A model generated the notes under the pieces. The model was given only the letters and a program-made list of their open reading frames with translations. It made no database searches and was not told the origin of the DNA. A DNA stretch of 64,000 nucleotides from assembly GCF_021917145.1 (NCBI RefSeq), contig NC_061078.1, forward strand, positions 10,708,604 to 10,772,603, given 5' to 3'. This DNA is from Hypomesus transpacificus (Eukaryota > Chordata > Actinopteri > Osmeriformes > Osmeridae). Shown piece by piece: positions 2,134-54,017 of the stretch (position 1 is its first letter; each line of letters begins with the position of its first letter). Both the position numbers and the translations under genes were made by a program.

Positions 2134-8984
<6,851 letters not shown>

Positions 8985-37088: not shown

Positions 37089-39137
37089 ATGATGTTTGGG
37101 AAGTCAAGGACTTGCAATTTTGCCGCTGTTCCTGAGCGGGGTCAACCTGAGTGTAACGTGGTGGTTCTCGGAGTGATGGGTTCTGGAAAATCAGGTTTGT
37201 TCAGGTTCCTTTCTGCCAAGTTAATATTGAAAAAATATTTTGAAAAAAAATTGTAATATCCTCCCAACACATAATAACATAATTGATAAATAAATGTTTG
37301 GCTGAGTCCTATTTGGCAAAGCTGGACAATAATTGTGTTTGTATTCTACAGTTTTGAGTGGTTTGTTATTACAGAAATCTGATACCAAATATCATGGGAG
37401 TGTTTATGTCGGGTGGTTTCTCATGCTCCAAGTGTAGACCCCAGATTTAAAGACAGTTTGACAGACATGTAATGTAAGCCTGAATCTAAACAGGATGTGT
37501 TTTTCTGCTTTGCAGCGTTGACTGTGAAGTTTCTCACAAAGCGCTTCATCAGTGAATACGACCCCAATCTCGGTAAAAATGTTCAGTCTTCATAATGAAA
37601 ACAACAACGATGACATATCCTCTTGGTTTCAGTTCCTGACTGGACATTTCCTGAAGAACTTGTTTTCTTTTGTCCAACTTCCTAGAGGATACCTATTCCA
37701 CTGAGGAGATTGTAGACCAACAGCCAGTGGTGGTGAAAGTGATGGATACCGCTGACCAGGTATGAACAAACACGTTTTACAAACAGCCTCACTCATGATC
37801 TCCCAGCTGCAGACCAGGCTGAGTGATCCGCCATGCTGTCTACCTCTCTATAGGATGGTCCTGTGAACTGTGAGCGCTACCTCACCTGGGCCAATGCCTT
37901 CCTGGTGGTCTACAGCATAGACAACAGACTGAGCTTCGAGGGATGCCAGCAGTACCTGCAGACCATCACCCTGCACACTAAAGCCCTCCAGCCTTACACC
38001 CCCATCATCCTGCTGGGAAACAAGCTAGATATGGAGAGATACAGGTGGGTGGGGCCTCCTGGAGCTCTCAGTACTGTTTGAAGGGACAACCACACAGGGG
38101 ATGTGAGGAGGTCTGGAGTGCAGAGTCTCATCAACATCACAACCAGAACATGGGAGGTTAGTGGAGGGAATGCGTCAGGGTGTGACGGTATGCAACGGAC
38201 GTGGCCACGCTCCGTCACTACAAGGCGTCGTTCGCCACTCGCTGGGCTCGAACGCACGACCTCTGACTTGCCAAGCGCGACCACTACCAGCTACGCCAAA
38301 GAAAAGCTAGCTAATCGTTGATGCGGGTAGCCCATTACATACCTGAGGAGTAAGTTTCACAGGTTCACACCCGTTACAAGGGCACGTTGCATGCTTTATT
38401 TCTGCAGATCGTGAAGCAGGCTGGGACTGCTGTGTCTTTGCTGCTGTTTATTCAGAAGACTAATGTTTAGTAGAGGATGTCAAGCAGAGGGGATGAATAG
38501 CAGGATTTGAGGTTGATTATTTCTCTTGATAGTGTATGATATTGTTTAAACTTGGCTTTGTTTAAAATTGGCATCTTATCCTTTAACTTCTTACATTTAG
38601 CAGATGCTCTTATCCAGAGTGACTTACAGTGAGTACAGGGACATTCCCCCGAGGCAAGTAGGGTGAAGTGCCTTGCCCAAGGACACAACGTCATTTCGCA
38701 CGGCCGCTAATCGAACCGGCAACCTTCTGATTACTAGCCCGATTCCCTAACCGCTCAGCCACCTGACTCCCTCACTTTTCCCTTCCTCAACCAGGCAGGT
38801 GAGTCAGTCCGATGGCTCGGCCCTGGCGTCTCGTTTCGGCTGCTTGTTCTTCGAGGTTTCTGCATGTCTGGACTTCCTCTCGGTGCAGAGGGTCTTCCAC
38901 GAGGCAGTGAAGGAAGCCAGGCGGGAGGGCGAGCGAAGCTCCCCGTTACGACCTCTGTACATCAGCGAGGACAAGCCCCTGGTGAGCCTTTCCTCGGCTG
39001 CCTCTTTCGCCAGCCCCCGCTACACGGAGCTACCAGCCCCCACCACCGCCAAGCTGGTCACAGTGAAGTCCTCCAGAGCCCAGAGCAAACGCAGGGCTCC
39101 CACACTCACCCTGCTCAAAGGGTTCAAGATATTCTAA
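37089..39137 (+). CDS. rasl12: Ras-like GTPase RASL12 (Ris)
   Basis: Five exons: 37089-37194, 37516-37572, 37686-37759, 37854-38044, 38795-39137. They encode 256 residues (human 266). G-domain motifs are visible: P-loop GVMGSGKS, the switch-I region SEYDPNLEDTYS, DTADQ at G3, NKLD at G4 and VSAC at G5. The C-terminus KLVTVKSSRAQSKR...LLKGFKIF is shared with human and lacks a CaaX box, so the protein is not expected to be prenylated. G3 has a Gln after DTAD, where human RASL12 has Leu. The large intron 4 holds two tRNA-headed SINEs. The gene lies head to head with kbtbd13 and tail to tail with the slc51b-like gene. Confidence 0.95.
38190..38322 (-). mobile_element. tRNA-headed SINE fragment (A)
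   Basis: Read on the minus strand, an A-box-like TAGCTGGTAGTGG is followed by a B-box-like GTTCGAGCCC, at the spacing of a tRNA-derived pol III promoter. The sequence then runs into a non-tRNA body with ACGGAGCGTGGCCACGTCCG. It lies in rasl12 intron 4. It is not a functional tRNA: no closed acceptor stem is seen. Confidence 0.65.
38586..38772 (-). mobile_element. tRNA-headed SINE (B) with fish-type tail
   Basis: On the minus strand it starts GGGAGTCAGGTGGCTGAGCG, with A box TGGCTGAGCGG and B box GGTTCGATTAG. A body with CCTTGGGCAAGGCACTTCAC follows, then the tail GGATAAGAGCATCTGC. This head-body-tail order is that of a common teleost SINE family. It belongs to a different family from the copy 270 bases upstream. 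Its right end lies only about 20 bases from the rasl12 exon 5 acceptor. Confidence 0.75.
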
Positions 39138-40052: not shown

Positions 40053-42020
40053 TCACTGGCCCTCTTTCTCCCCCATCAACACTGCTGCCTCTGCCTCTGC
40101 CTCATCCACCTCAATCTCTACCTCCTCCTCCTTCTTCTCCACCTCCTCAGTTTCCACCACGTCTGTCTCCACCACTTCTGTCTCCACCTCTTGTCTTTCC
40201 TCCTCCTCCTCCAGCTCTGCTGCAGGTTCAGGGTACAGATTGGAGACGTCTCCGTTCTTCCAGGTCACCATGATTTCTCCAGGTTTAAGCCTGTCTGTTT
40301 CCCCGCAGTCTTGTTGAGGTTGGATTTGCTGCACCACACTCTCTGACAGTGTCCTGACCTGAGTGGGGGTGCTATGGGTGGCATTGACCTCTGTGGTTGT
40401 AGTGAAGACCTGGAGTTCTTCACCCTCTGACCTCTGAGCCAGAGCAGCTGCAGCCTTATACTTGGCTATCTTCTTCCTGTTTCTGTGTGAGAGAGAGAGA
40501 GAGAGAGAGCCGTCATGGAGCCGTCACCCAAACTTGGGTAATTGGATGTGTGTCAATGAGTTCCATGTGGGCATATGTAGTCCACCAAGGATTCTAAGAT
40601 GTCTTACTTGTTAGCCATGGAGCCCATGCCTAGGAGCAGGCAACCAAGGAGGAGAGCCCCAAAGGACAGAGCCAGCATCGCCAACTTCCATCGCGTTGCT
40701 ATGAAAATGAGAGACACACACTACTGAACAAAGACATCTTATCACCCATCCGTAGAATAAATATTAAAAGACAGACTGTACACCCAGGACCTTTCAGAGA
40801 CGTCAAAGACTGCTTTTGAACTTGCTCCAAGTGTGCACTTAACAACTTCTTTAAAGACTTAGGGAATAAAACTTTATGGCCATGTAAATTTGAGCAAAAC
40901 CTTCTTTTATTACCACAACCTTTTATGGTGGAAGGCATGAGGATGCATCGTTAGTAGTATGTCAAGTAGGGTAGTGACCTTGTTAAGCTGTTCCTCCTAT
41001 CTCAAACTAGTTAACCAAGTACAAGGGAACAACTATATCCAAAGTCCTGATAAATGTGTTTCCAAATACTGAAGGGAACCAATAAATGAAAAAAGGTTCT
41101 GTTTTTCTGTGTTAAAACATTTAGCACCACTGTCACAGAACACATCAGCAGTATCACTTACGGTCTTCCGTGCGATAAAACCATTTTAAAAACTCTCTCT
41201 GTTCCTCAGTCATGGCGGCTGCGCTCATCTCCGCTCCCCCCTCCCTCACTTCAAACTCGTCTTGCTCATCGGAGGATGCCCTTTTGGATCCTGTGGGGAG
41301 CCAATACAAACACATGCACATGTTGTAGCTCTGCTGTAACAAGATGGAGGACACAAATGGTGGACAACCTTCCACATAAATTTTTATGCTTCGTCATAGT
41401 TTAAACAAGGTTTTCTGTTCACACAGTAATTGAGTGTCACTGATTGTGTGCTGGACTCACTAAGCCTCTCCTGGCAGATGTCCCCTTCATCCAGAGACCT
41501 CCACTTGGACTGTTTACTCCGGGGTGACAGAGTCAGGCGTTTCCCATCTGTGGACAGCTCTAGAGACAAGTGCCGGCTCATCAGTCTGTTACCCTCACAA
41601 TCCCACTTGAGTCCATTGCCCTCCCTCTCTCCTCCCTCCTCCCCCCCTTCACAGGGCACCGTCTGGACAGGATCGGTGTGGTAGCCCGACAGGCACCTGG
41701 ATGTGACCACACTCTCCAGGATATTGGGGTCCCTCCACACCCACTGCTGAAGGTCTGAGTCAAGGCTGCACTTCTTCAGCTGAACCCAGCCAGTTTTGGA
41801 GTCTTCAAGGCACAAGCTGTGAACTGTGTTGTGGATCATGAAGCTGCTTGTCCCTGAAAATGTATTTGGACATGTTTGATATTGCACAAACCCAACAGGC
41901 TTTTACTAGTTTCTATGGTCTTATGACCATATGACTCAAGATTAGGTGGAGATTACCTATTATTAGGATTGTAACATTACCTGGAAGGACAAGACAGAGT
42001 GCCATCCAACCATACATCAT
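40053..42020 (-). CDS. slc51b: Ost-beta (SLC51B) with N-terminal CysR/ricin-type lectin domain
   Basis: Five exons on the minus strand: 41981-42020, 41461-41853, 41162-41290, 40608-40698, 40053-40482. They join in frame to 360 residues. Residues 1-18 look like a signal peptide (MMYGWMALCLVLPGTSS). Residues 19-143 are a CysR/ricin B-like beta-trefoil: FMIHNTVHSLCLED, then three W motifs (LQQWVW, LKWDC, QSKWRS), as in the N-terminal domain of mannose receptors. After an RSKR site and an acidic linker comes the Ost-beta core WFYRTEDPTRWKLAML, with one membrane helix (about 192-213) and a basic stop (NRKKIAKYK). The cytosolic tail has a conserved KPGEIMVTWKNGDVSNLYPE and a long Glu/Val repeat. 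Ost-beta partners SLC51A in basolateral bile-acid export. Human SLC51B (128 residues) has no lectin part. A shorter form could start at the Met within exon 3. Confidence 0.8.
40487..40510. repeat. GA microsatellite beside slc51b last exon
   Basis: A (GA)n run, (CT)n on the coding strand. It lies just upstream of the last-exon acceptor of the minus-strand slc51b-like gene and may serve as its polypyrimidine tract. Confidence 0.8.
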
Positions 42021-43960
42021 GTCTGGTTGGCTAAATCTGCATTAAGGAATAACATAAATATACATTACATGGATTCATTTGTGTAACATGTTATATTACT
42101 TAATCCAAAAGAAATACAGAATCCCATTCCAAATTCATAATCAGCTGTTTTCCAATAGATTCACATTAGAGCTTATTTGCTTAAGCTTGAGCAGGACATT
42201 CAACTCAAGTTATTTTAGACCATTCCCTTCCCTGTTTACTTTCCCTGTTTCCTTAAAACCAGAGGGTGGTCGGTAACAAATTAGTTACACCAGAAAAATG
42301 TACACCAGTCCTGCTGGTGGAACGTTTATCCAAAGCACTGCCTTATTTGTGCACCAGTTGAAATTGTACTTAACATTGCTTTGAAAGTAGAGATATTTTC
42401 TTAAATTTTTAAATTTTTTACTGTGTTACAAACACTGCCAACCAGCATCATCCTTATAAGGTCTTGTGAAGTGGCGTGGAACCATTGGCAATAAATAAAT
42501 AATAAACAGAAACATTTACATTTGAAGAATAGACAATAAATGTATTTTGATGACTAACTGTGGTTGTCCTATTATGTTCTTGACCCAAAGCTTCAAAAAC
42601 CATGTACTAATATATATGCAGACTTTTCTTCTTTTATATAACAGTTATGACTCCACAGTATTTTGCGTCCCGGGTGACTTCACTTACCTCTGTAGAATTC
42701 CTTCTCTGACTGCCTGGCATGGGAGCAAAGCTGCACAGAGCATGATTCTACCTGTCAACATATACCACAGGGAAGGAAAGCTTTCCAAAGTTCAAGTGGG
42801 AGGGGATTCGTTTTCATTGCCTCTTGATTCAGAAATCTGTAAGACTTAATGGAATAAGATAGCAATGAGTTTTAACTCAAGTTTAAGTGTGTCTGTAAAC
42901 TAGGGTATTATCTGAAAATAATTGAGGGGTCACAAAGTTTGAAGCAATTGTGAGATACATAAAACATGAAATCTCTCAAATTGAATGTTGAATAGATGGT
43001 TCACATTAAATGCCCCTTTCTATTATCTGCACAGTGGAAGGCCAGAAAAGTCTATTGCATAGTATTTTCTATCTATTTTCTTCAACTCAACATATGAACT
43101 AAAGATCAAGCTTTGACTGTGTGATTTGGGAGAGTATGGAGAGCTGGCCCTGTATTTAACAAGGTCTTTGACCAGTTTCTGTTTAGTCAGCCTAGCTATA
43201 ACCTTGTAACTGCCATTTAAGGGGATGACAGAAAAACAGTCAGTGACTCATCGGTCAAACACCTGGCACATAAGCAAATGTCGTAATATTTGGTTGTTAA
43301 ACAAGAAAAAAATAAAGGTGTTTATTTCTTTACGACAAGTGTGGCTTACAGTGTGAGGTGAACGACCTTTGTGTCATTTAAGATATACACAGAGATCACA
43401 GGATTTGAAAATGGCATGATATTGATGCCACTATAAAATGCCCTTTGATAAATGATTATGTTGTAGGCTATGCTTGATGATAGCTTTCCATGACAAACTG
43501 AAGTTTTCATTGTTGTGATACCCCTCCAGGATAAATAATGATGTCACCAATTTAATCAACTTTAAAGAAGATCCATGTATGAATGGTTAGAGACCTACCC
43601 AACTTGTTGAAGACTATGTGGATAAGCACACACGGCTGTCAAACCTGCGTTTCATGGAGGTTTAATGACCCTGACAGCCTGACAGGTATGACAAAGTACT
43701 ACTTAAGGTTCAACGGACCATGCGTTAAAATACTTGCTTCCATTCGGAATCTATTTCGAGGGGACCGGAAACGCAATTCACGATAGGAAAAACATGGCGG
43801 CGCCCGTAGAAGGAGTGTCAGATGAAGCAGTAGCCTGACTTTCCAAATACAGCTAAGCGATTCATTATTTGTATTAATCCTGTAGTCGAATCAAATATAT
43901 TGGGCGATTGATATTCCCGCTCATGCAATTATCAAGTTTATTGCATTTAGGTCGGTGAAG
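42021..43960. other. Divergent region between slc51b-like gene and mtfmt
   Basis: About 1.9 kb. A frame of 100 codons at 42547-42849 (+) shows nothing recognisable. The right end (43790-43960) is the mtfmt 5' UTR with a small upstream ORF. Otherwise no feature was seen. Confidence 0.5.
43794..43838 (+). promoter_or_regulatory. Upstream ORF in mtfmt 5' leader
   Basis: An ATGG start in good context (AAAACATGG) opens 14 codons (MAAPVEGVSDEAVA) and then TGA. It lies about 120 bases before the mtfmt ATG. If the transcript starts upstream of 43794 and is not spliced here, this uORF could lower mtfmt translation. Alternatively the MAAP start belongs to a different first exon. Confidence 0.45.
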
Positions 43961-46042
43961 ATGTGGAATACTGTCAGTCCAAAACAAATGGGTTGGAAGA
44001 TACTCCATAACATGTGCAGTTATTGCATACAGAGACATGTTTCTGTCCGACTGTGTAATCGAAGAATCCATATCAAACATAGATGTGGTGGACCTATCCC
44101 TGACCAGACACTGACAGCTGGCACCCTTAAGGATTCGACACCAGGACCACCTTGGAGAATATTGTTCTTAGGCACTGATGATTTTGCAGTAGAATCCCTA
44201 AAACTGCTCTCCACGTTCAGGTAACACTAACACAGACTTCTTGAATGAGCAGAAACTTAATGCAGAAATCCATCCCGGCCCCTTTCTAATATGGTGCTAT
44301 ATAATATGGGATTTGTTTATTTTACAGAAAGTCCAGTGATGGAGTTGTGGAGTCACTTGAGGTTGTCACACTAGATAATGATGTCCCAGTAAAGAGGTTT
44401 GCTAAGGAGAACAGTCTCCCGGTTCACACATGGCCTCTTGGAGATCTCCAGGGGCGGTTTGATGTTGGAGTGGTGGTGTCCTTTGGCTGCCTACTCCGGG
44501 AGACACTAATCAAACAGTTTCCATAGTGAGTTACACTGATGTGTGCAGTGCACTCAGTGACACACCAGAAATGCTGTAGGTCACTGAGTGCCTGCCCTGA
44601 AAAAAATCTTCCCATTGAGCCAGACTTCAATCCTAGATGTGTGCATGTGTGTTCTCCAGTGGGATCCTGAATGTCCACCCCAGCCTGCTCCCCAGGTGGC
44701 GAGGCCCAGCTCCGGTGTTCCACACTATCCTGCATGGGGACACCTTCACGGGGGTCACTGTCATGCAAATACGAGCCAAAAGGTAAAAGGAACCTGTCCT
44801 TTACAGGGGATTAGTTGTCTGCCAGGTCTATGGACATCATATAAGGAGGAAGGGCAGTTGAGGTGATGCATGATTACATTAGCTGATCACTAATTCATTC
44901 ATGACATGTTTGCTGCAGGTTTGATGTGGGTCCCATTCTTCACCAGGGATTCCACCAGATCCCTGAGAACTGCACTGCTGACCAGCTAGGAGCAGCCCTG
45001 GCTGCCCAGGGAGCTGGCCTGGTGAGAGAGATCACACTACTGTCACTGGAGCACATGCAAGACCTGGTATCAGCCTGTCATGCAAACCCTTAAATGACTT
45101 ATATATATAAAGCAAGGTCTTTTTGTTGTTGTTGTAAGAGCAGTTGATGGAGACTTTGAAGAACCTTCCCGAGAGAATATTACACCAAAGGGAGCAAGAC
45201 AAAGAGGGTGCAACATTAGGTAAGCATGTTGATGTCTCCCAGCATGTATAAGCATACCGACACAAAACACATGTCTCAGAGCTTTTGTGTCATGCTTCCC
45301 ACAGCACCTAAAATCAACTCGTCTATGAGCTGGATGGTGTGGGAGGAGCAGACCTGTGCCCAAATTGACCGTCTGTATCGTGCTATTGGATCTCGAGTAA
45401 GAACAGACTCATCTGATGTGTAATACCGGGGAGGATAACATCCATTTTGCTGCTGTTGTAACACATTTCCATCAATTCTCCTATCAGATCCCGTTGAGGA
45501 CCATTTGGATGGGGAAAACAGTCAAGTTGTTGGACTTTGTCGGCACATGCAATATATCTCTTTCAGGTACCAGTTTGTTTTATGATCAGACCATTTTTGG
45601 GTTGTAAGATTGAAAACCAACACTGACTGGATTCATTTTGACCGCAGGGAGAGGAAGGAAGCCAGTTCCAGGATGCATCAGCTACCAGAAAGAATTAGAC
45701 ACACTGGCTGTCTGTTGTAAGGTATGTAGTACAGTAGCTTGCTTGTTAGACCTGACTTGTCATTCTACAACAATTCAGCTACACGGCAAGGCTCTTTCAA
45801 CATGATACCAAGAGAATGACATTGTTCATCTGGCTCTGGTGTAGGATGGCTGGGTGGGATTCAAGGCAGTGATACTAAAGAAGAGACTGTCTGCAACAGA
45901 CTTCTACAATGGCTACCTCCACCAGAGCTTTCAGAAGAGATCCTCTCACCAGACAGAGGAGTGCCTGTTTCTCAGCAACAAGAACAGAACTGAGCTCCAG
46001 CCAATAAGAGAGAACACATCGACACAACATACTGTCCATTAA
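43961..46042 (+). CDS. mtfmt: Mitochondrial methionyl-tRNA formyltransferase
   Basis: Nine exons: 43961-44220, 44328-44525, 44660-44782, 44919-45021, 45144-45219, 45305-45396, 45488-45566, 45648-45721, 45845-46042. They encode 400 residues. The start is Arg/Lys/His-rich, as in a mitochondrial presequence. [16 protein letters not shown] opens the formyltransferase fold. [16 protein letters not shown] carries the catalytic Asn-x-His and the SLLP motif. FDVGPIL holds the likely catalytic Asp. The C-terminal tRNA-binding domain ends with [20 protein letters not shown]. The enzyme formylates Met-tRNA in mitochondria to make the initiator; human defects cause Leigh syndrome. A GTG six bases upstream is in frame, but ATG at 43961 is the natural start. 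An AATAAA follows at 46159-46164. Confidence 0.94.
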
Positions 46043-46158
46043 GGCTCATGATGTAGTAACCATTGTACAATGGCATCTCATTTCATGTAGTTAATATTAT
46101 TCTTTGCAAATAATTTCTCTTTGTCTGTTTTAAGACAACTGAATATCAACATGAATGT

Positions 46159-46164
46159 AATAAA
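46159..46164 (+). promoter_or_regulatory. Likely mtfmt polyadenylation signal
   Basis: AATAAA about 120 bases after the mtfmt stop. The opposite-strand signal for the neighbouring gene (TTTATT at 46351-46356) leaves roughly 190 bases between the two, so the convergent transcripts barely clear each other. Confidence 0.6.
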
Positions 46165-46409
46165 GTGGCATTCTTCACAAATTACAGGAGTGCGACTCAA
46201 AAGCATTGGAACATTCACTTAAATATATAAATAATTGTATTTGCATAAACACATTTTTACAGTACTTCTTACATCCTTTTGCTTCATTACAATATCTTAC
46301 AGATGATTTAGCATTTCTTGGTAACATTGTACCTATACTGTAGATGCAACTTTATTTTGGAGATGTCTTGCATTTTCCCAGGAAAGTTGGTGTCTCGCAG
46401 CGAGGTCTG

Positions 46410-48966
46410 TCAAACTGGTGGCTTGACAAGTGGCACATACCACTGAAGAAGAAAGATTTGATTTAACATGCTCAAGAACTTAAATAAAGCAGACAAATGT
46501 AGGATACGTGTTTAGCTGTACCTCCTCAGTCATCCCTGCTGTCGTCCTGCCCTCTGTGTTAAAAGGAGGTTTCAGGTATCCTTTGAAGTGCTGCTTTACC
46601 AGGTCATGGAACATCGACAAGCAATCCTATACAGGACAGAAGGCCAGAGTAGGCTTAGCCACTAATATGTACCGTATTCGGCAGAATATAAACCTTTATT
46701 TTCTGCTAGAAATAAGTATTGTGTCTATGGGATCGTACCCGGCCTTCCTCTGAACAGATGTAAGTGAACCACCGCAATCCTGCTGCCACATGAGTGATCT
46801 CATCTTTGTATATCACCTCCAGCACATCCACAGAGCCTGTGTCACCCTGGCTAGCAAAGCGGGACAGAGTCTGGGGGTGGACATCTAACCCTCTGAAGAG
46901 GACAGAGGGAGCGAGAGACTGAGACATGATTCTGATTATCACTGCAGGCTTCTATCTTCCTTTCACAGATTTTAAGACGCGTGTGAGAAAAAAAAATCCT
47001 CTAAGCCAGTCTGCTTGTTTACCTGGCCTCATGCACCATGTGCACGATAGCAAGCCTCGCTAGAAGGTCATGTGACGTATCTGTCGCTGACTGCCACAGT
47101 CCTGTAGAGACAAGTGAAGGTTAAAACAACTCCCTGTTCTTCAGTTGAATGTTACATTCATGAAGTGAAATGCTCACTGTACCTACCGTTGTGTACAGGC
47201 AAAGCTCCAAAGAAACTCCCAAGTTCTGTGATCCTCGTCTCCAACAGGTGATAATGCTGTTGAATATATCACATACTGATTGTATGACCAGTAAGTAGCA
47301 ATCTTTCTATTATCGACTGTGCCTGTCTGTGATCTGACCAATCATTGTGTCACACTGACCTTGGCCTCGTCCCCAGCCACTTTGACAAAATCGCTGAAGA
47401 ACTGTCGAGGCAGAGGCTCTCCAGTGTCCAGTCGAACTGTGGAGAATCTGGCGATGACATCCCAGGACAGGTCGATGGCCCACTGCTCTATGTTAGCCAG
47501 GGAATGGAGCAGAGCTATCCTGCTGGCCTGGCCACACAGAAGTTGGAAGCATTCAGCACAATGTCACGTTGTGCTTTGACATATCTGTCTGGTTAGCCAA
47601 AGAGGTTTGTGTCGCACACACGGACCTGTGTGCCTCCTTTGCCACGTTTGATTTTCCCTGGCTGCAACACAGTCAGGGTGTCCTTCCTGCTGGGCTGGGC
47701 TGGGGGTGTGGCCTGGCCCACCTCCGTTATCCCTCCTGAGCACCACCGCTCCTGCACCTCCAGTGTCAGGCTAACCTGGAGAAGAAGCACAGGGCTCATT
47801 TATACATCAACTGTCTGAGAAACATGTCTGCATCCCAGACAATGTGTCTTTCATTCTGAGATGGAAATGGTGTGGTACTAATCTGCTTGCTTTCTCTTTG
47901 GGATCAGGAGTACACAGAATCTTGGTTGCCCAGAAACACAGCGTGTCCTTAGAGGGAGATAACTTGTTGTTCTCTGGTGACACTTGGCCTGAAGCAACAA
48001 CAAACAAAAGATTAGTCATATTGTATTGGCAAATTGTTTTGTTTTATTTTTTAGATGGCTCAGTGCCATACTGCACCTATAGAGGCTGTTTTTGCCACTG
48101 GAATGGGGGTCAGGGACAGGGAATTCTGTGTGTTCACATACACCTTGTCTTCCACCACTCTGACATCATACACCTGGTTCTATAAAAAACAGATGTCATA
48201 CTAAGTTACATAAAATATGTTCAAATATCCAAATCACGCTGTTGCTTGAGATCACTTTTCCTACCTGCAGCCCAGTAGTGGAGACCCCAGTCTCCAGACA
48301 GAAGTCAAAGTGGTGCCAGGGGCAGACCAGAGCTAGCTTTCCATCCCCAAGGTCCTCTATATCACCCAGGTCCAGGGGGCCACCTAATCAAAGCACCAGA
48401 GTTAGACGTCTCATGAGTACGTTTATTGTCTGGGGGGGAAATTATACAACATTTATATATATACACACATTTTTTACTAAATATATCAAACCTAAAACAA
48501 ACTTATGAATGATTGTAAGCCTGTTACCTTCATGAGGGCAGGAGGAATCCATCGCCCAGAAAGTATCATTTTCGGTATGGACAAGTACTATGTGTTCACC
48601 ATCTTCAGAATACAGCCTGAAGTAAGGTCGACATGTATATTGACCAGTTTACATTAACAAAGAGGTCAGAGGTTTTCTTAAAGCAACAAAGAATTCACAC
48701 AGTAGTCACAAAGACATCTAACAGGGTTTCCAGTAGAAAGCATGTTAGCAAATGACTTACTTTGTACATGTTTGCTCAAAATTCAATGTATCCCCTACAC
48801 ATTGCCAATTTCCATCCTTGACTATTGCTCGTAATGCTGCAACTAAATCCTCTTCAAAGTGATCCATTAAAACCATGTGTTTATAAAAATCTATATTGCA
48901 ATGTTGCAACCTGGGGACTACAAAACGTACTTCCTGATAACCGTCCGCCCTCAAATTGCTTCCCAT
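46410..48966 (-). CDS. Rieske [2Fe-2S] and DUF455 ferritin-like two-domain protein
   Basis: Twelve exons on the minus strand: 48761-48966, 48528-48616, 48265-48383, 48077-48179, 47879-47988, 47626-47775, 47360-47527, 47187-47256, 47023-47101, 46739-46892, 46522-46626, 46410-46442. They sum to 461 residues. Residues 70-155 form a Rieske domain with cluster ligands C95-P-H97 and C119-PW-H122 (SSCPHEGGPLDLGDIEDLGD, then CPWHHFDF), close to vertebrate RFESD. From about residue 175 the protein resembles DUF455 (COG2833). This includes LCFWATKILCTPDPKEKA, IEQWAIDLSWDV, DEAKHYHLLETRI, LGSFFGALPVHNG, VHMVHEARGLDV, YKDEITHVAAGLRWF and the terminal WYVPLVKPPV. The repeated (D/E)E-x-x-H motifs suggest a diiron site. 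No function is established. I infer electron transfer from the Rieske cluster to a diiron centre. The exon 5 donor (GTACCA) is the weakest junction. Confidence 0.8.
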
Positions 48967-49775
48967 CTGAACATATCCGGGGTGGAAAAAGACGACGCAC
49001 AACTGATTTTTTTTCAAGATTATATTTGAATACCGGTAACAAGCTTTGGTATGCCAAATCAAACCAAAATGTTTATTTGAATACCATCGGGTCTGCAAAA
49101 CGAACATCATTTGATTAATTTAACCCATTACATAACAATATAATAAAAATGTATTTCCCCCCAATTTCCCAGAGCATACTGTAACAGTAGGTATGAACCT
49201 ATGTCAGCATTTAAACGAATCATACTGTAACAGCATTTACTCAAAAATGAATATAGCCTAGATACCGGTTAAACGTATGCCACTTAATGAAAGGGTGATG
49301 GAATATAGCATGAGTGAAAAACTAAAATATACAACAGTAAATAGATAGTGTGCAAAGTATTCATGATCAGTGTTTCACGTTTTAGTATACCCACATGGAA
49401 AGCCCATTTTGCATGAAGGAAAGAACTCTGTCTCCCCCTAAATCTTCTTCTTTTACTACTAAGTGCAGGACCAGATATAGGATGAAACGTTTTATACTAC
49501 ATCTTACCTGAATACAATACACATGCTTTTCAGTACATTCTTGAAAAGCTAAAAAAGTGTTAGTTGCAATATGATACAATTCATAACACATAGACCTACT
49601 TACAATATTTGTCCAAAACACTTACTACATATATTATACGTATATTACTACTATCATTTACAAATCGGAACAGACAAACGCCAACAAAAAGGTAGTGATT
49701 CCCATCAGAAACAGTTGTTCATGACTAGAATGGAGTGTGATGTCATTCTAGTTATTCTGTCATTGTCCAAGTAGA
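48967..49775. other. Upstream of the Rieske/DUF455 gene and prc1 3' end
   Basis: AT-rich and non-coding. It must hold the promoter of the minus-strand Rieske/DUF455 gene and the prc1 3' UTR, both transcribed leftward. Confidence 0.5.
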
Positions 49776-52700
49776 TCAAAGGTGAGTAATGGTGGAGTTC
49801 AGGATAACTGGCTTGCATTTGGTGTTGGAGGCCTTGGAGAGATCTCTCTGTGGTAGGAGGAAGACTGACATTAGCAATGGCAGATCACAAACGGTCCAAA
49901 ACAACAACAAAAATACTTCCATGTCAATAAAGAGTGACAATGTGACATCAATGAAAATAAAAATGGATCAGGGAAAAACGGGAAAGTTGTTAGATAGGGA
50001 AGAGTTATTGATGGTTGAAGGTGGGGAAAACAATACCACAGCATCACACAGCCTTGCCTAATGGCATGCATTTTGGCTAACAAGAATGCACTTACAGACT
50101 ATGAATGCAGGTGGTTAATCATAACAGTTAGTTTAGTTTAAGACACTGCTGATGAGAACAACTTCTTGAGAAATGTATGTTCAGACAAACCTTGACTGAA
50201 TAGATTCAGGATTGCTTAAGTCTTTCTAAAACAAAACCAAAATTACTGTTATTTTCAAACTACCCACACCCATTCTGACTAGACTGTGTGTTGCTGCTGA
50301 GAATTCAAAGGAGAACGTGAAGGATTAGGGTGGAAAAATTAAACATCCAAATTACCGCAAACTCTGAGTAGGTGCTGGCAACAGAGTGAATACTGATGGT
50401 GCGCTGTGGACTAGCAGTGGTCCGCAGCCCTCCACACAAAGGAGACACATTCACCTGGGCTATGTTCTCCTTCTGACGCTCCTGCAGACCTCCGTGAGGG
50501 GCTCTGCTACGTCCTGGGGTCCGTGCTCCAGGGCCCTGGGGAAAACACACAGAAGGATGAGCCACAACAATCACTCACAACCAAGACCAACTAAGGACAT
50601 TTCATTGCATTCATGTGGATGGTGAGGTTAGTACAAATCTTTTCAAAATATTTCCATCATAAGTCACTATTCTGCACAATTTATACACACTGCACAGACC
50701 TTGTTTGCTGACAGTGGGGGGCGGGACATAGGTGAGTGGCAGACAGTCCCACCATAGACTGAGCGCATAGTGCTGTTAGAGTTGGCACTAGAGGTGCTGG
50801 AGGTAGCGTTAAGCTGAGAAAGAAACAGCAGTTAGTGAGGCCATCGCCAAGCCAACATATTAGAATAGTGAAACTAAAGTAACTTGATCTGATTTGTTGG
50901 AACTGTTAGTTATGGTTTAAGGAGACAAACAAGCATTCAGGCTAACTATTTGTCCACTTGTTATATTCACATAATATGAAATAGGGCCATGCAATTGATA
51001 CAAAGGCTTGAAGTACACATTAGTGGTTATGATACCTTTCGTGTTTTACCGGGGGTAGCAGTGCCAAGGAATCTTCGTTTGGTTGGAGTTCGGACAGATG
51101 TCCCATAGAGCATATCCTCTTCGGTCTGTTTGTTCTTCTTCAGATGCTGTAGAAAATGTGGGTACAGTGATGGATCATATCTTAGGTGTAATCCAGAGAG
51201 CTTGTGATTACAAACAGAGCTACTTCCTCACCCTCTCCAGTTTCTCTCTTTCCTTCTCAATGCGGTGCAGCTCCCACTGCTCCTCCACAAACGGCAGGAA
51301 CTTCTGTTCATGGACCAGGAACTCCCTGCCCTGCTCCAACTCCCAAACATCAATCTGGGCCTTCAGCTTTTTCTCAAGCTGAAAAACCAAAACATAGACA
51401 GACGACACCCTTTAACATTGAACAAGGACGCCTTTCGCTCCTTACAGAAACGCACTTGGTTGTTGCAGAGGGTATAAATATTTGTTTGTATCCTCTTACC
51501 TTCGGAAGGCTTTTGTGCAACTCTGACCTCTGCTTCTCTTCCTTGAGGAGGTTTCCTCCTCGGTTGGTGAATCTGCTGGGATCTGTGGCTTTTTTCTTTC
51601 AGGATTGAAAGAGCAAGGGACTTGACGTTAACTTAAACAGGTCTGACACGGCCTGCTCTGTGCCGTTGTAAAGCAAGCCCCAGTGGGGTCATGGTGCTGC
51701 TCACCTCCAGCTCCAGGAAGAGTCTCCAGCTGTTCTCCCAGCGGTGGACTCCTTCAAACAACTCCTGGTGCTCCTCATAGTGCCGTTTCAAATGCAGGAT
51801 TTCAGCCTCATGCAGGCTCAGCAGCTCCTCAGTGAACTCCTCTAGGGGGATGAAAAGAGAGCTCATTTGTAACACTGCAAACCATTGAAAATGAACCCCT
51901 TAAAAATACAGTTCTTAGGTACCACTCACCACTGAAGTATGCCAGAAAGGCCTGCCGCTGGTCGGTGCTGAAGAAGCACTTCTCCCAGAGCACGGCTATC
52001 TCCGAGCGAATGGCCTCAATGACATTAACAATGTTTCGTAGCTTTATCTCCTCCAGACGCTGGACCTCCGCTTGCAACTGACAAGAGAAGAAAACATCTC
52101 CTGGTTATAGAATACACTTTTGGGTGCCCGTGCTCCAAACACATCACGTGTGGGGTTTGGAATGCCTGACGCAGACCTCGGAAAAACCATCTGTCAGTAA
52201 TATGAACTACACCACAAGGTCGAGTTTTTACTGACTGCTTCCAGATTCCTCTTCTTGGAGGTAACCATGTGTTCAGAGAAGGCCTCTCTTTCCTCCTGGG
52301 GGACCTGCAGCCTGGACCAAAGCTCCTGGATCTTCTCTCTATGACTCTCGCACACAGCCTCGTTCTCAGCCTTCCTCGCCTCCAGCTAAACACACAACAC
52401 AGCACAAATTACAGTTAGCTCAATGGCAGAGCAGTCATCTCAACAGCATAAAATGAGTGATAAGCAAATATTATAAGTCCATGACTTTACTAACTGACTG
52501 ACCTGGCAGAGGAGGAGTTTGAGTGAGGTAATGTTTTCTCTGGACAGGCAGAACGCGTCCTCATCTTCACAAACAATGTCCTTCTCGAAGCTCGTCTCAG
52601 GAAGCTGATCCAGGTCCTCCATACACAGGATGATCTGCCTCTTGACGTCCACAAACTCTGCCCGCCTCCTCCCCTGAACACAGACACAATCATGATCTTC

Positions 52701-54017
52701 CCTTCCAGATGAATAGACGTCAGCCAGCATAAACAATATCAATACAAAAAGGACAACAGACACATTAAACATGTCCTCTCAAGTCGGAACTCGGAAACAG
52801 AGTATTCATACCGTCTGTGTTGATCTTAAGAATTGACAGTCACCTTCTCTGCCATCTGGTTAGAGATGTGCCGGCGGAAGCTGTCCAGCTGCTCCATAGA
52901 GGGGACGCAGTTGGGGGTGATGGCGTAGGCCTGGGAGCACAGGATATCAGACAGGTCCTGGTCTTGCTCAACCAGGGCTTTCAGCTGCTGCATCCTCTGG
53001 CTCCTCTCCTTCACCAGGATCTCCACTCGCGTGCGGATGTCTTTCTCCTGCTGGAGCATGCTATTACCCTTCTCCTCCTGGGCAGGTGTGCAACACAGGG
53101 GAGTAGGGGTCAAATAAATATGCATCACATTTCAAACGGGTTGGATGGTATCCCGCAAGACAGTTGTCACAATATGTCTCACTGACTAAAAACCCTACCT
53201 CAAATGGAGGAAACTGCAGTTCCAGGGTGAGTGTTTCCAGCTCTTTCCGGCATGTTTCAAGGCTGCTGATCAGTCTTTTTTTTAGAGATTCCTCCTCAGC
53301 AATCATCATGTCCAACATCCCCTATGACATTAGTATATTGAATCAGCATCTGAACAATTTGATAGATAATATAATGCCAGATACTCTGATAATCTCAGCA
53401 TATGCATGCAGATTAGTATTATCGCCATGGGGTGAACAGGTGCACCACTTGCAGCATGAAGGTACAGTCTGGGTCAGTTCAGAAGGACATTTTCAATTCC
53501 TAACTAGATAGAATCTTTATGACTCACTTGAATGTGGTTTTTGACAACATTAGTTCTCTGCAGTCTCTGGTCCTCCGGAATACCAATCTCCTCCCAGATG
53601 TCCTTCAGGTGGCACAGAGCTTTATTCAGGCATGCCACAGACTCAGCTGCGAGCACCTCACTGGGACAAGAGAGAGAAAAGGGGGTTGGTCTCATCACCC
53701 TGCTACTGGATGACTGTTTGGGTGTTAAACTACTGTAACCATCCTAGCTCTGTCAAACAATGTGTCTAACAAACTACTGTACTACTAGTTGTAGGAGCTA
53801 ACAAATACCACAAAAGATCTTGTTGTGATAGATTTCCGCTACACGTAAATAAGACATTTGTTTGAACCAACTAACTAACATTTAGATAGCAAGACATGCA
53901 ACAAGTGGTAGGCAACCATGCATGCTAGCTATTGCTGCTAAAATGTGATGTGTTGCTTAGCATTTGACATTCCATGGATTGCATCAAGTCAGATATTTCA
54001 AAATACCTCTTTCTCAT
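49776..54017 (-). CDS. prc1: Protein regulator of cytokinesis 1
   Basis: Fourteen exons on the minus strand: 54007-54017, 53528-53660, 53199-53321, 52844-53077, 52503-52673, 52236-52385, 51930-52077, 51705-51841, 51500-51595, 51232-51378, 51036-51146, 50700-50813, 50356-50535, 49776-49847. They encode 608 residues (human 620). The start MRKSEVLAAESVACLNKALC and IPEDQRLQRT match human PRC1. Long helical dimerisation and rod segments follow, then the spectrin-like microtubule-binding domain (ELFEGVHRWENSWRLFLELE; DPSRFTNRGGNLLKEEKQ). The basic, Ser/Thr-rich tail has TP sites (VRTPTKRR, ATPGKTRK), a KEN box (QKENIAQ) and HSVASTYSEFA. PRC1 bundles antiparallel microtubules at the central spindle, recruits KIF4A and PLK1, and is held back by CDK1 until anaphase. 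Whether this is the prc1a or prc1b copy of fish cannot be told here. Confidence 0.94.

Follow-up and report, generated by a model that had tools for sequence, protein, structure and literature searches.

A fish slc51b gene that very probably encodes Ost-beta joined to an N-terminal trefoil-like domain

Ost-beta, a small accessory subunit of the bile-acid transporter, has so far been viewed as a minimal helper with a single helix. Here we describe slc51b in a window of 64,000 nucleotides of the fish Hypomesus transpacificus (NC_061078.1, positions 10,708,604 to 10,772,603; the window is this whole stretch, and coordinates are positions within it unless another contig is named). The sequence supports a single gene on the minus strand for an Ost-beta with an added N-terminal trefoil-like domain, and the fusion of the lectin and Ost-beta parts is very probably real: the exons join in frame, and a second gene of the same build is found at C349:25806-29261. 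Two genes with such an ectodomain amount to a natural experiment on the job of the extracellular part, and they give a lead to the origin of the subunit.

The preliminary description of this DNA had joined five exons (42020-40053, minus strand), and these indeed form an uninterrupted frame of 1083 base pairs (bp) for 360 residues, with no internal stop, GT-AG borders throughout and intron phases of 1, 1, 1 and 2. Exon 1 (41981..42020) holds the start codon and a signal-peptide-like stretch (MMYGWMALCLVLPG), and ends in phase 1 at the donor CAG/GTAATG; the signal peptide is putative and rests on hydropathy, with an eight-residue peak of 2.6 at residues 5-12. The entire six-cysteine, mannose-receptor-type trefoil-like domain is encoded by exon 2 (41461..41853; 393 bp; phase 1-1), which intron 2 (41291..41460; 170 bp) separates from the Ost-beta exons. 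These are exon 3 (41162..41290), with a linker and the juxtamembrane start of Ost-beta (EEQREFLKWFYRTED), exon 4 (40608..40698; 91 bp; phase 1-2), with the transmembrane helix, and exon 5 (40053..40482), with the cytosolic tail and the stop codon. The tail contains the box PGEIMVTWKNGDVSNLYPEP (40224..40283), which is common to the C349 gene; its end (40053-40220) is a long low-complexity stretch rich in Glu and Val, absent from the 128-residue human chain and from the C349 protein in the alignment.

By sequence and position, the locus is fish slc51b. Pfam places OSTbeta (PF15048) at residues 168-247 with an expectation value (E) of 1.3e-14 and 54.7 bits, above the cut-off of 27, and the core matches human Ost-beta in PDB (9ljg_B, E 6.8e-5). 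Both share the juxtamembrane WFxRxED segment (WFYRTED in the fish), the single helix and the cytosolic tail; the strongest hydropathy window (residues 193-211) follows this segment, in agreement with the alignment to 9ljg_B. The human PDB chains have 128 or 141 residues and align to the core only, which is in keeping, for human, with the statement that the mammalian protein has no such domain: signal peptide, trefoil-like domain and linker are extra in the fish. The neighbourhood also matches that of mammalian SLC51B, the human order of which we take to be MTFMT-SLC51B-RASL12-KBTBD13: mtfmt lies upstream, head to head (Formyl_trans_N, 1.1e-23 on joined pieces), and downstream are rasl12 (Ras C-terminal match of 3.6e-4, slightly below its cut-off), then kbtbd13 (BTB/Kelch, named from its position) and pdcd7. 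Genes resembling clpx and ubap1l were recognised nearby by eye only, Pfam giving no hit on the short pieces. A genome search with the slc51b core returned this locus alone among its matches and missed the C349 gene, so diverged copies of Ost-beta may escape such a search. Two other searches were uninformative: PF15048 found nothing in the genome, as did 14 controls, and the human Ost-beta tail found nothing and missed slc51b itself.

From its sequence, we regard the domain encoded by exon 2 as a relative of the cysteine-rich (CysR) domain that forms the tip of the macrophage mannose receptor, and not as a formal member of CysR_MRC2_N (PF24562), because its score against this profile is just under the curated cut-off (E 1.3e-5; 25.4 bits against 27, profile positions 4-133 of 133). 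The exon alone is also just below the cut-off of Ricin_B_lectin (PF00652; E 8.4e-6; 26.4 bits against 29). Thus, of the two families that the preliminary description had named for a Pfam search of the 360 residues, OSTbeta scored above its cut-off and Ricin_B_lectin below. The same description had spoken of a secreted-type lectin; a trefoil-like domain is present, but it resembles the mannose-receptor domain more closely than it does a generic secreted lectin. When compared, profile against profile, with five CysR domains (human MRC1, MRC2, PLA2R1 and LY75 and the yolk-sac IgY receptor), exon 2 matched over 116 columns with a probability of 95% and an E of 3.8e-8, and its alignment score with MRC1 or MRC2 was reached by none of 1000 shuffles in either case. 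In PDB, the lectin part matched the mannose-receptor domain weakly (0.026) and actinohivin at 3.6e-5. All six cysteines are in register with the mannose-receptor family in an alignment of 12 rows (five of the six in our first alignment).

Gene structure points the same way. The exon borders were read for seven CysR-type exons of the genome, i.e., those of slc51b, the C349 gene, C62, C17, C12 (two) and C8, the last four being the best four of six matches to the human MRC2 domain (two weak ones, with E of 0.03 and 0.94, were left out). Each of the seven is a single phase 1-1 exon (borders of five read by eye). In slc51b, as in the mannose receptor, this exon directly follows the signal peptide, but it precedes Ost-beta exons and not FN2 and C-type lectin domains. 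In the tree of these domains, the two Ost-beta-linked lectins group together with moderate support (87/88, and 88/87 in a second tree) and on long branches. Outside eukaryotes, none of 33 pattern matches in viral contigs and none of 21 in bacterial and archaeal genomes was confirmed as a homologue.

The second gene gives the fusion its independent counterpart. It is an open five-exon frame (exons 869-926, 1505-2059, 2233-2340, 2594-2684 and 2824-3031 in the numbering of the C349 locus) with the same intron phases as slc51b and a transmembrane exon of identical length (91 bp). Its product would comprise a signal, a ricin-type trefoil (Ricin_B at 2.1e-10, 41.3 bits, above the cut-off), an Ost-beta-like helix and a tail with the box GEIxxxWKxGxV (GEILIEWKDGTVTPLF, against GEIMVTWKNGDVSNLY in slc51b). 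A genome search with the slc51b lectin, at E up to 1, gave five matches: its own exon, a second overlapping match at the same locus, C349 (1.0e-5 at 35% identity, almost full length), C62 (1.6e-4) and C9 (at chance level). In the reverse search, the C349 lectin found only its own gene and slc51b exon 2 among its matches. BLASTP aligned residues 6-301 of slc51b with residues 12-333 of the paralogue in one collinear alignment (23.8% identity, E 3e-12), and with the parts taken separately the lectin, the transmembrane exon and the tail each scored above all 2000 shuffles (z-scores of 18.1, 7.1 and 7.0). The extracellular part of the paralogue has three N-glycosylation sequons, consistent with a secreted ectodomain. 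The paralogue differs from slc51b in its linker, which is longer and rich in His and Ser, in having no WFYRTED segment, and in its neighbours (CH-domain, arrestin-like and aquaporin-like genes), so its age cannot be read from synteny. A sequence resembling a short interspersed nuclear element, identified by eye, is shared between the slc51b flank (about 38594-38721) and intron 1 of the paralogue (about 1350-1478), with 91% identity over 129 bp.

Several observations weigh against a single gene for an Ost-beta with an extracellular trefoil, or against parts of this reading. Splice sites were scored with general consensus frequencies and ranked among all minus-strand GTs (3989) or AGs (4289) of the window. 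The exon 2 donor (TTA/GTGAGT), which had been described as strong, is an ordinary one, at 1.4 bits in the top 5.3% of GTs, and no border of the gene scores lower than the exon 2 acceptor (0.4 bits, top 10.9% of AGs); the remaining borders outscore both. Codon usage does not tell the frame of exon 2 apart from the others (0.30 bits per codon, against 0.33 in the best of the alternative frames, one interrupted by 7 stops). Exon 3 contains two in-frame ATGs, at 41228 and at 41213, of which the second has the near-ideal context GCCGCCATGA, and a short Ost-beta isoform starting there alongside the long form is therefore possible. AlphaFold gave no usable model for the lectin exon, either alone (mean predicted local distance difference test score, pLDDT, of 36) or with two relatives from the same genome (mean pLDDT of 32), leaving the fold unconfirmed by structure. 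In the paralogue, OSTbeta is below the curated cut-off (1.8e-4). When the C-terminal parts of the two genes are compared alone, BLASTP recovers only the 16-residue box (E 3.1e-4), and genome searches with either C-terminal part do not find the other gene; the C-terminal kinship thus rests on direct comparison. Finally, the slc51b protein lacks the acidic dileucine (ELLEE) that a passage of PMC4924846 reports as necessary for the binding of Ost-alpha and as conserved in the Ost-beta N-tail of 8 species: the alignment of the two fish genes has QR in this slot. The dileucine is a functional motif and does not define the Ost-beta family.

A rival reading has two adjacent genes, a small secreted lectin made of exons 1 and 2 and ending in intron 2, and an ordinary short Ost-beta starting at 41213 or 41228, the pair at C349 being a joint copy. 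The core read from ATG 41213 keeps its OSTbeta match (3.2e-14), the 128-residue human PDB chain begins near the same point, translation continued beyond exon 2 would stop after 25 residues, and joint duplication of two neighbours would likewise yield a pair like that of C349. We nevertheless regard this arrangement as highly improbable. The exon 2/3 junction keeps frame, with phase 1 on both sides, in slc51b (as had been claimed) and in the C349 gene. The gaps between the two halves are of 170 and 173 bp, and neither contains AATAAA or ATTAAA: we found a single weak variant in slc51b (CATAAA at 41388) and only weaker variants in C349. The first in-frame Met after the C349 lectin is residue 234, and the helix exon has its own first Met eight residues further on (242), so there is no start for an ordinary short Ost-beta there, and a separate short product would have almost no part outside the cell. 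A five-exon gene of the same build and without an early in-frame start in its linker argues against two separate genes, and the proposal of one fused gene is supported.

A single fused gene could still yield two products. The protein contains one furin-like site, RSKR (residues 145-148, following RL; 41280..41290 and the first base at 41461, minus strand), with the codon of R145 divided between exons 2 and 3. It is the sole RX[KR]R of the 360 residues, where 0.12 would be expected by composition, and it sits exactly at the boundary between the trefoil and the core. If the precursor were cut after this site in the secretory route, a soluble trefoil would be released and a short Ost-beta left in the membrane. 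Such processing seems rather unlikely: the paralogue protein has no RX[KR]R, and the presence of the motif does not amount to cleavage.

The function of the trefoil can be narrowed from its sequence. In the mannose receptor, Trp117 stacks on the sulphated sugar, and Endo180, with Ser at that position, does not bind, according to PMC4635314. In our alignment of 12 rows, this slot is Trp in two, human MRC1 and the MRC1-like fish exon on C8, Gln in slc51b and Val in the paralogue. Sulphated-sugar binding in the manner of the mannose receptor is therefore unlikely, and the suggestion of a glycan- or sulphate-binding ectodomain is not upheld. Also improbable, on the same grounds, is a broader version in which the trefoil serves as a receptor for glycans, whether sulphated or not, and in this way directs the transporter or captures bile salts or steroids that carry sulphate, given that the C8 exon of the same genome keeps the Trp and that the Ser-bearing Endo180 does not bind. 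At the other extreme, the trefoil might be a remnant without a role, retained since its exon is in frame. The divergence of the two lectins to 29-35% identity would fit this; yet the frame is open over 130 codons and both copies have retained all six cysteines, and we consider a remnant quite improbable.

The explanation that we find probable, taken as a whole, is that fish slc51b encodes a type I membrane protein whose trefoil lies outside the cell and aids assembly, stability or placement. The signal peptide would send the six-cysteine trefoil to the outside; behind it would come a short linker, the juxtamembrane segment of Ost-beta, the helix and the cytosolic tail. Like its counterparts in other vertebrates, the protein would assemble with Ost-alpha through its helix and juxtamembrane segment, and the trefoil on the outer face would make protein contacts, with Ost-alpha or another partner. 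We infer both the splicing in vivo and the topology of the fish protein. For human Ost-beta, PMC4924846 describes an extracellular N-tail that is required for association with Ost-alpha, and this agrees with the earlier argument that the added domain would be extracellular. With QR in the dileucine slot, the contact with Ost-alpha may be made otherwise in the fish, and the extra domain could hold a replacement. Taken alone, an assembly role for the trefoil is a tentative proposal, which we place somewhat below an even chance.

A candidate partner gene is present, as judged from its matches: a gene on C18 matches Solute_trans_a, and two of its joined exons match Ost-alpha in PDB (5.5e-9). A single Solute_trans_a exon also has six matches along one strand of C17 (14.53-14.76 Mb), which suggests a tandem array of an Ost-alpha relative. 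We considered this cluster as an expanded partner family and dropped the idea, since the exons (five of the six viewed) resemble TMEM184 rather than Ost-alpha.

Two readings of the origin remain. Exon shuffling may have brought the domain into the fish gene ahead of its duplication, or the domain may be ancestral and have been lost in mammals and skate. In an extended form of the second, the vertebrate ancestor of Ost-beta would have been a type I receptor that bore a lectin and consisted of signal, trefoil, helix and tail; its gene would have been duplicated, trimmed to helix and tail in mammals and skate, and kept at full length in both copies by fishes. On this view, C349 would encode a second beta-like subunit that has gone unrecognised, whose partner might be an orphan relative of Ost-alpha, for instance a TMEM184 protein. 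We hold this scenario to be unlikely; were C349 to serve such relatives as a beta subunit, the question of partners for this orphan family would arise. No lectin-bearing Ost-beta was found in the open literature, among the titles and abstract openings listed, which for the larger searches were those of the best-ranked results; the architecture may already be visible in automatic database annotations.

The cysteine-rich domain has a further unusual setting in this genome, on C62 (about 41500-52874). There, a signal-like stretch and an exon for the domain (PF24562 at 5.4e-9, above the cut-off) precede, on the same strand, a long mucin-like open frame rich in Thr and Ser and a possible fibronectin-III-like exon, unrecognised by Pfam.
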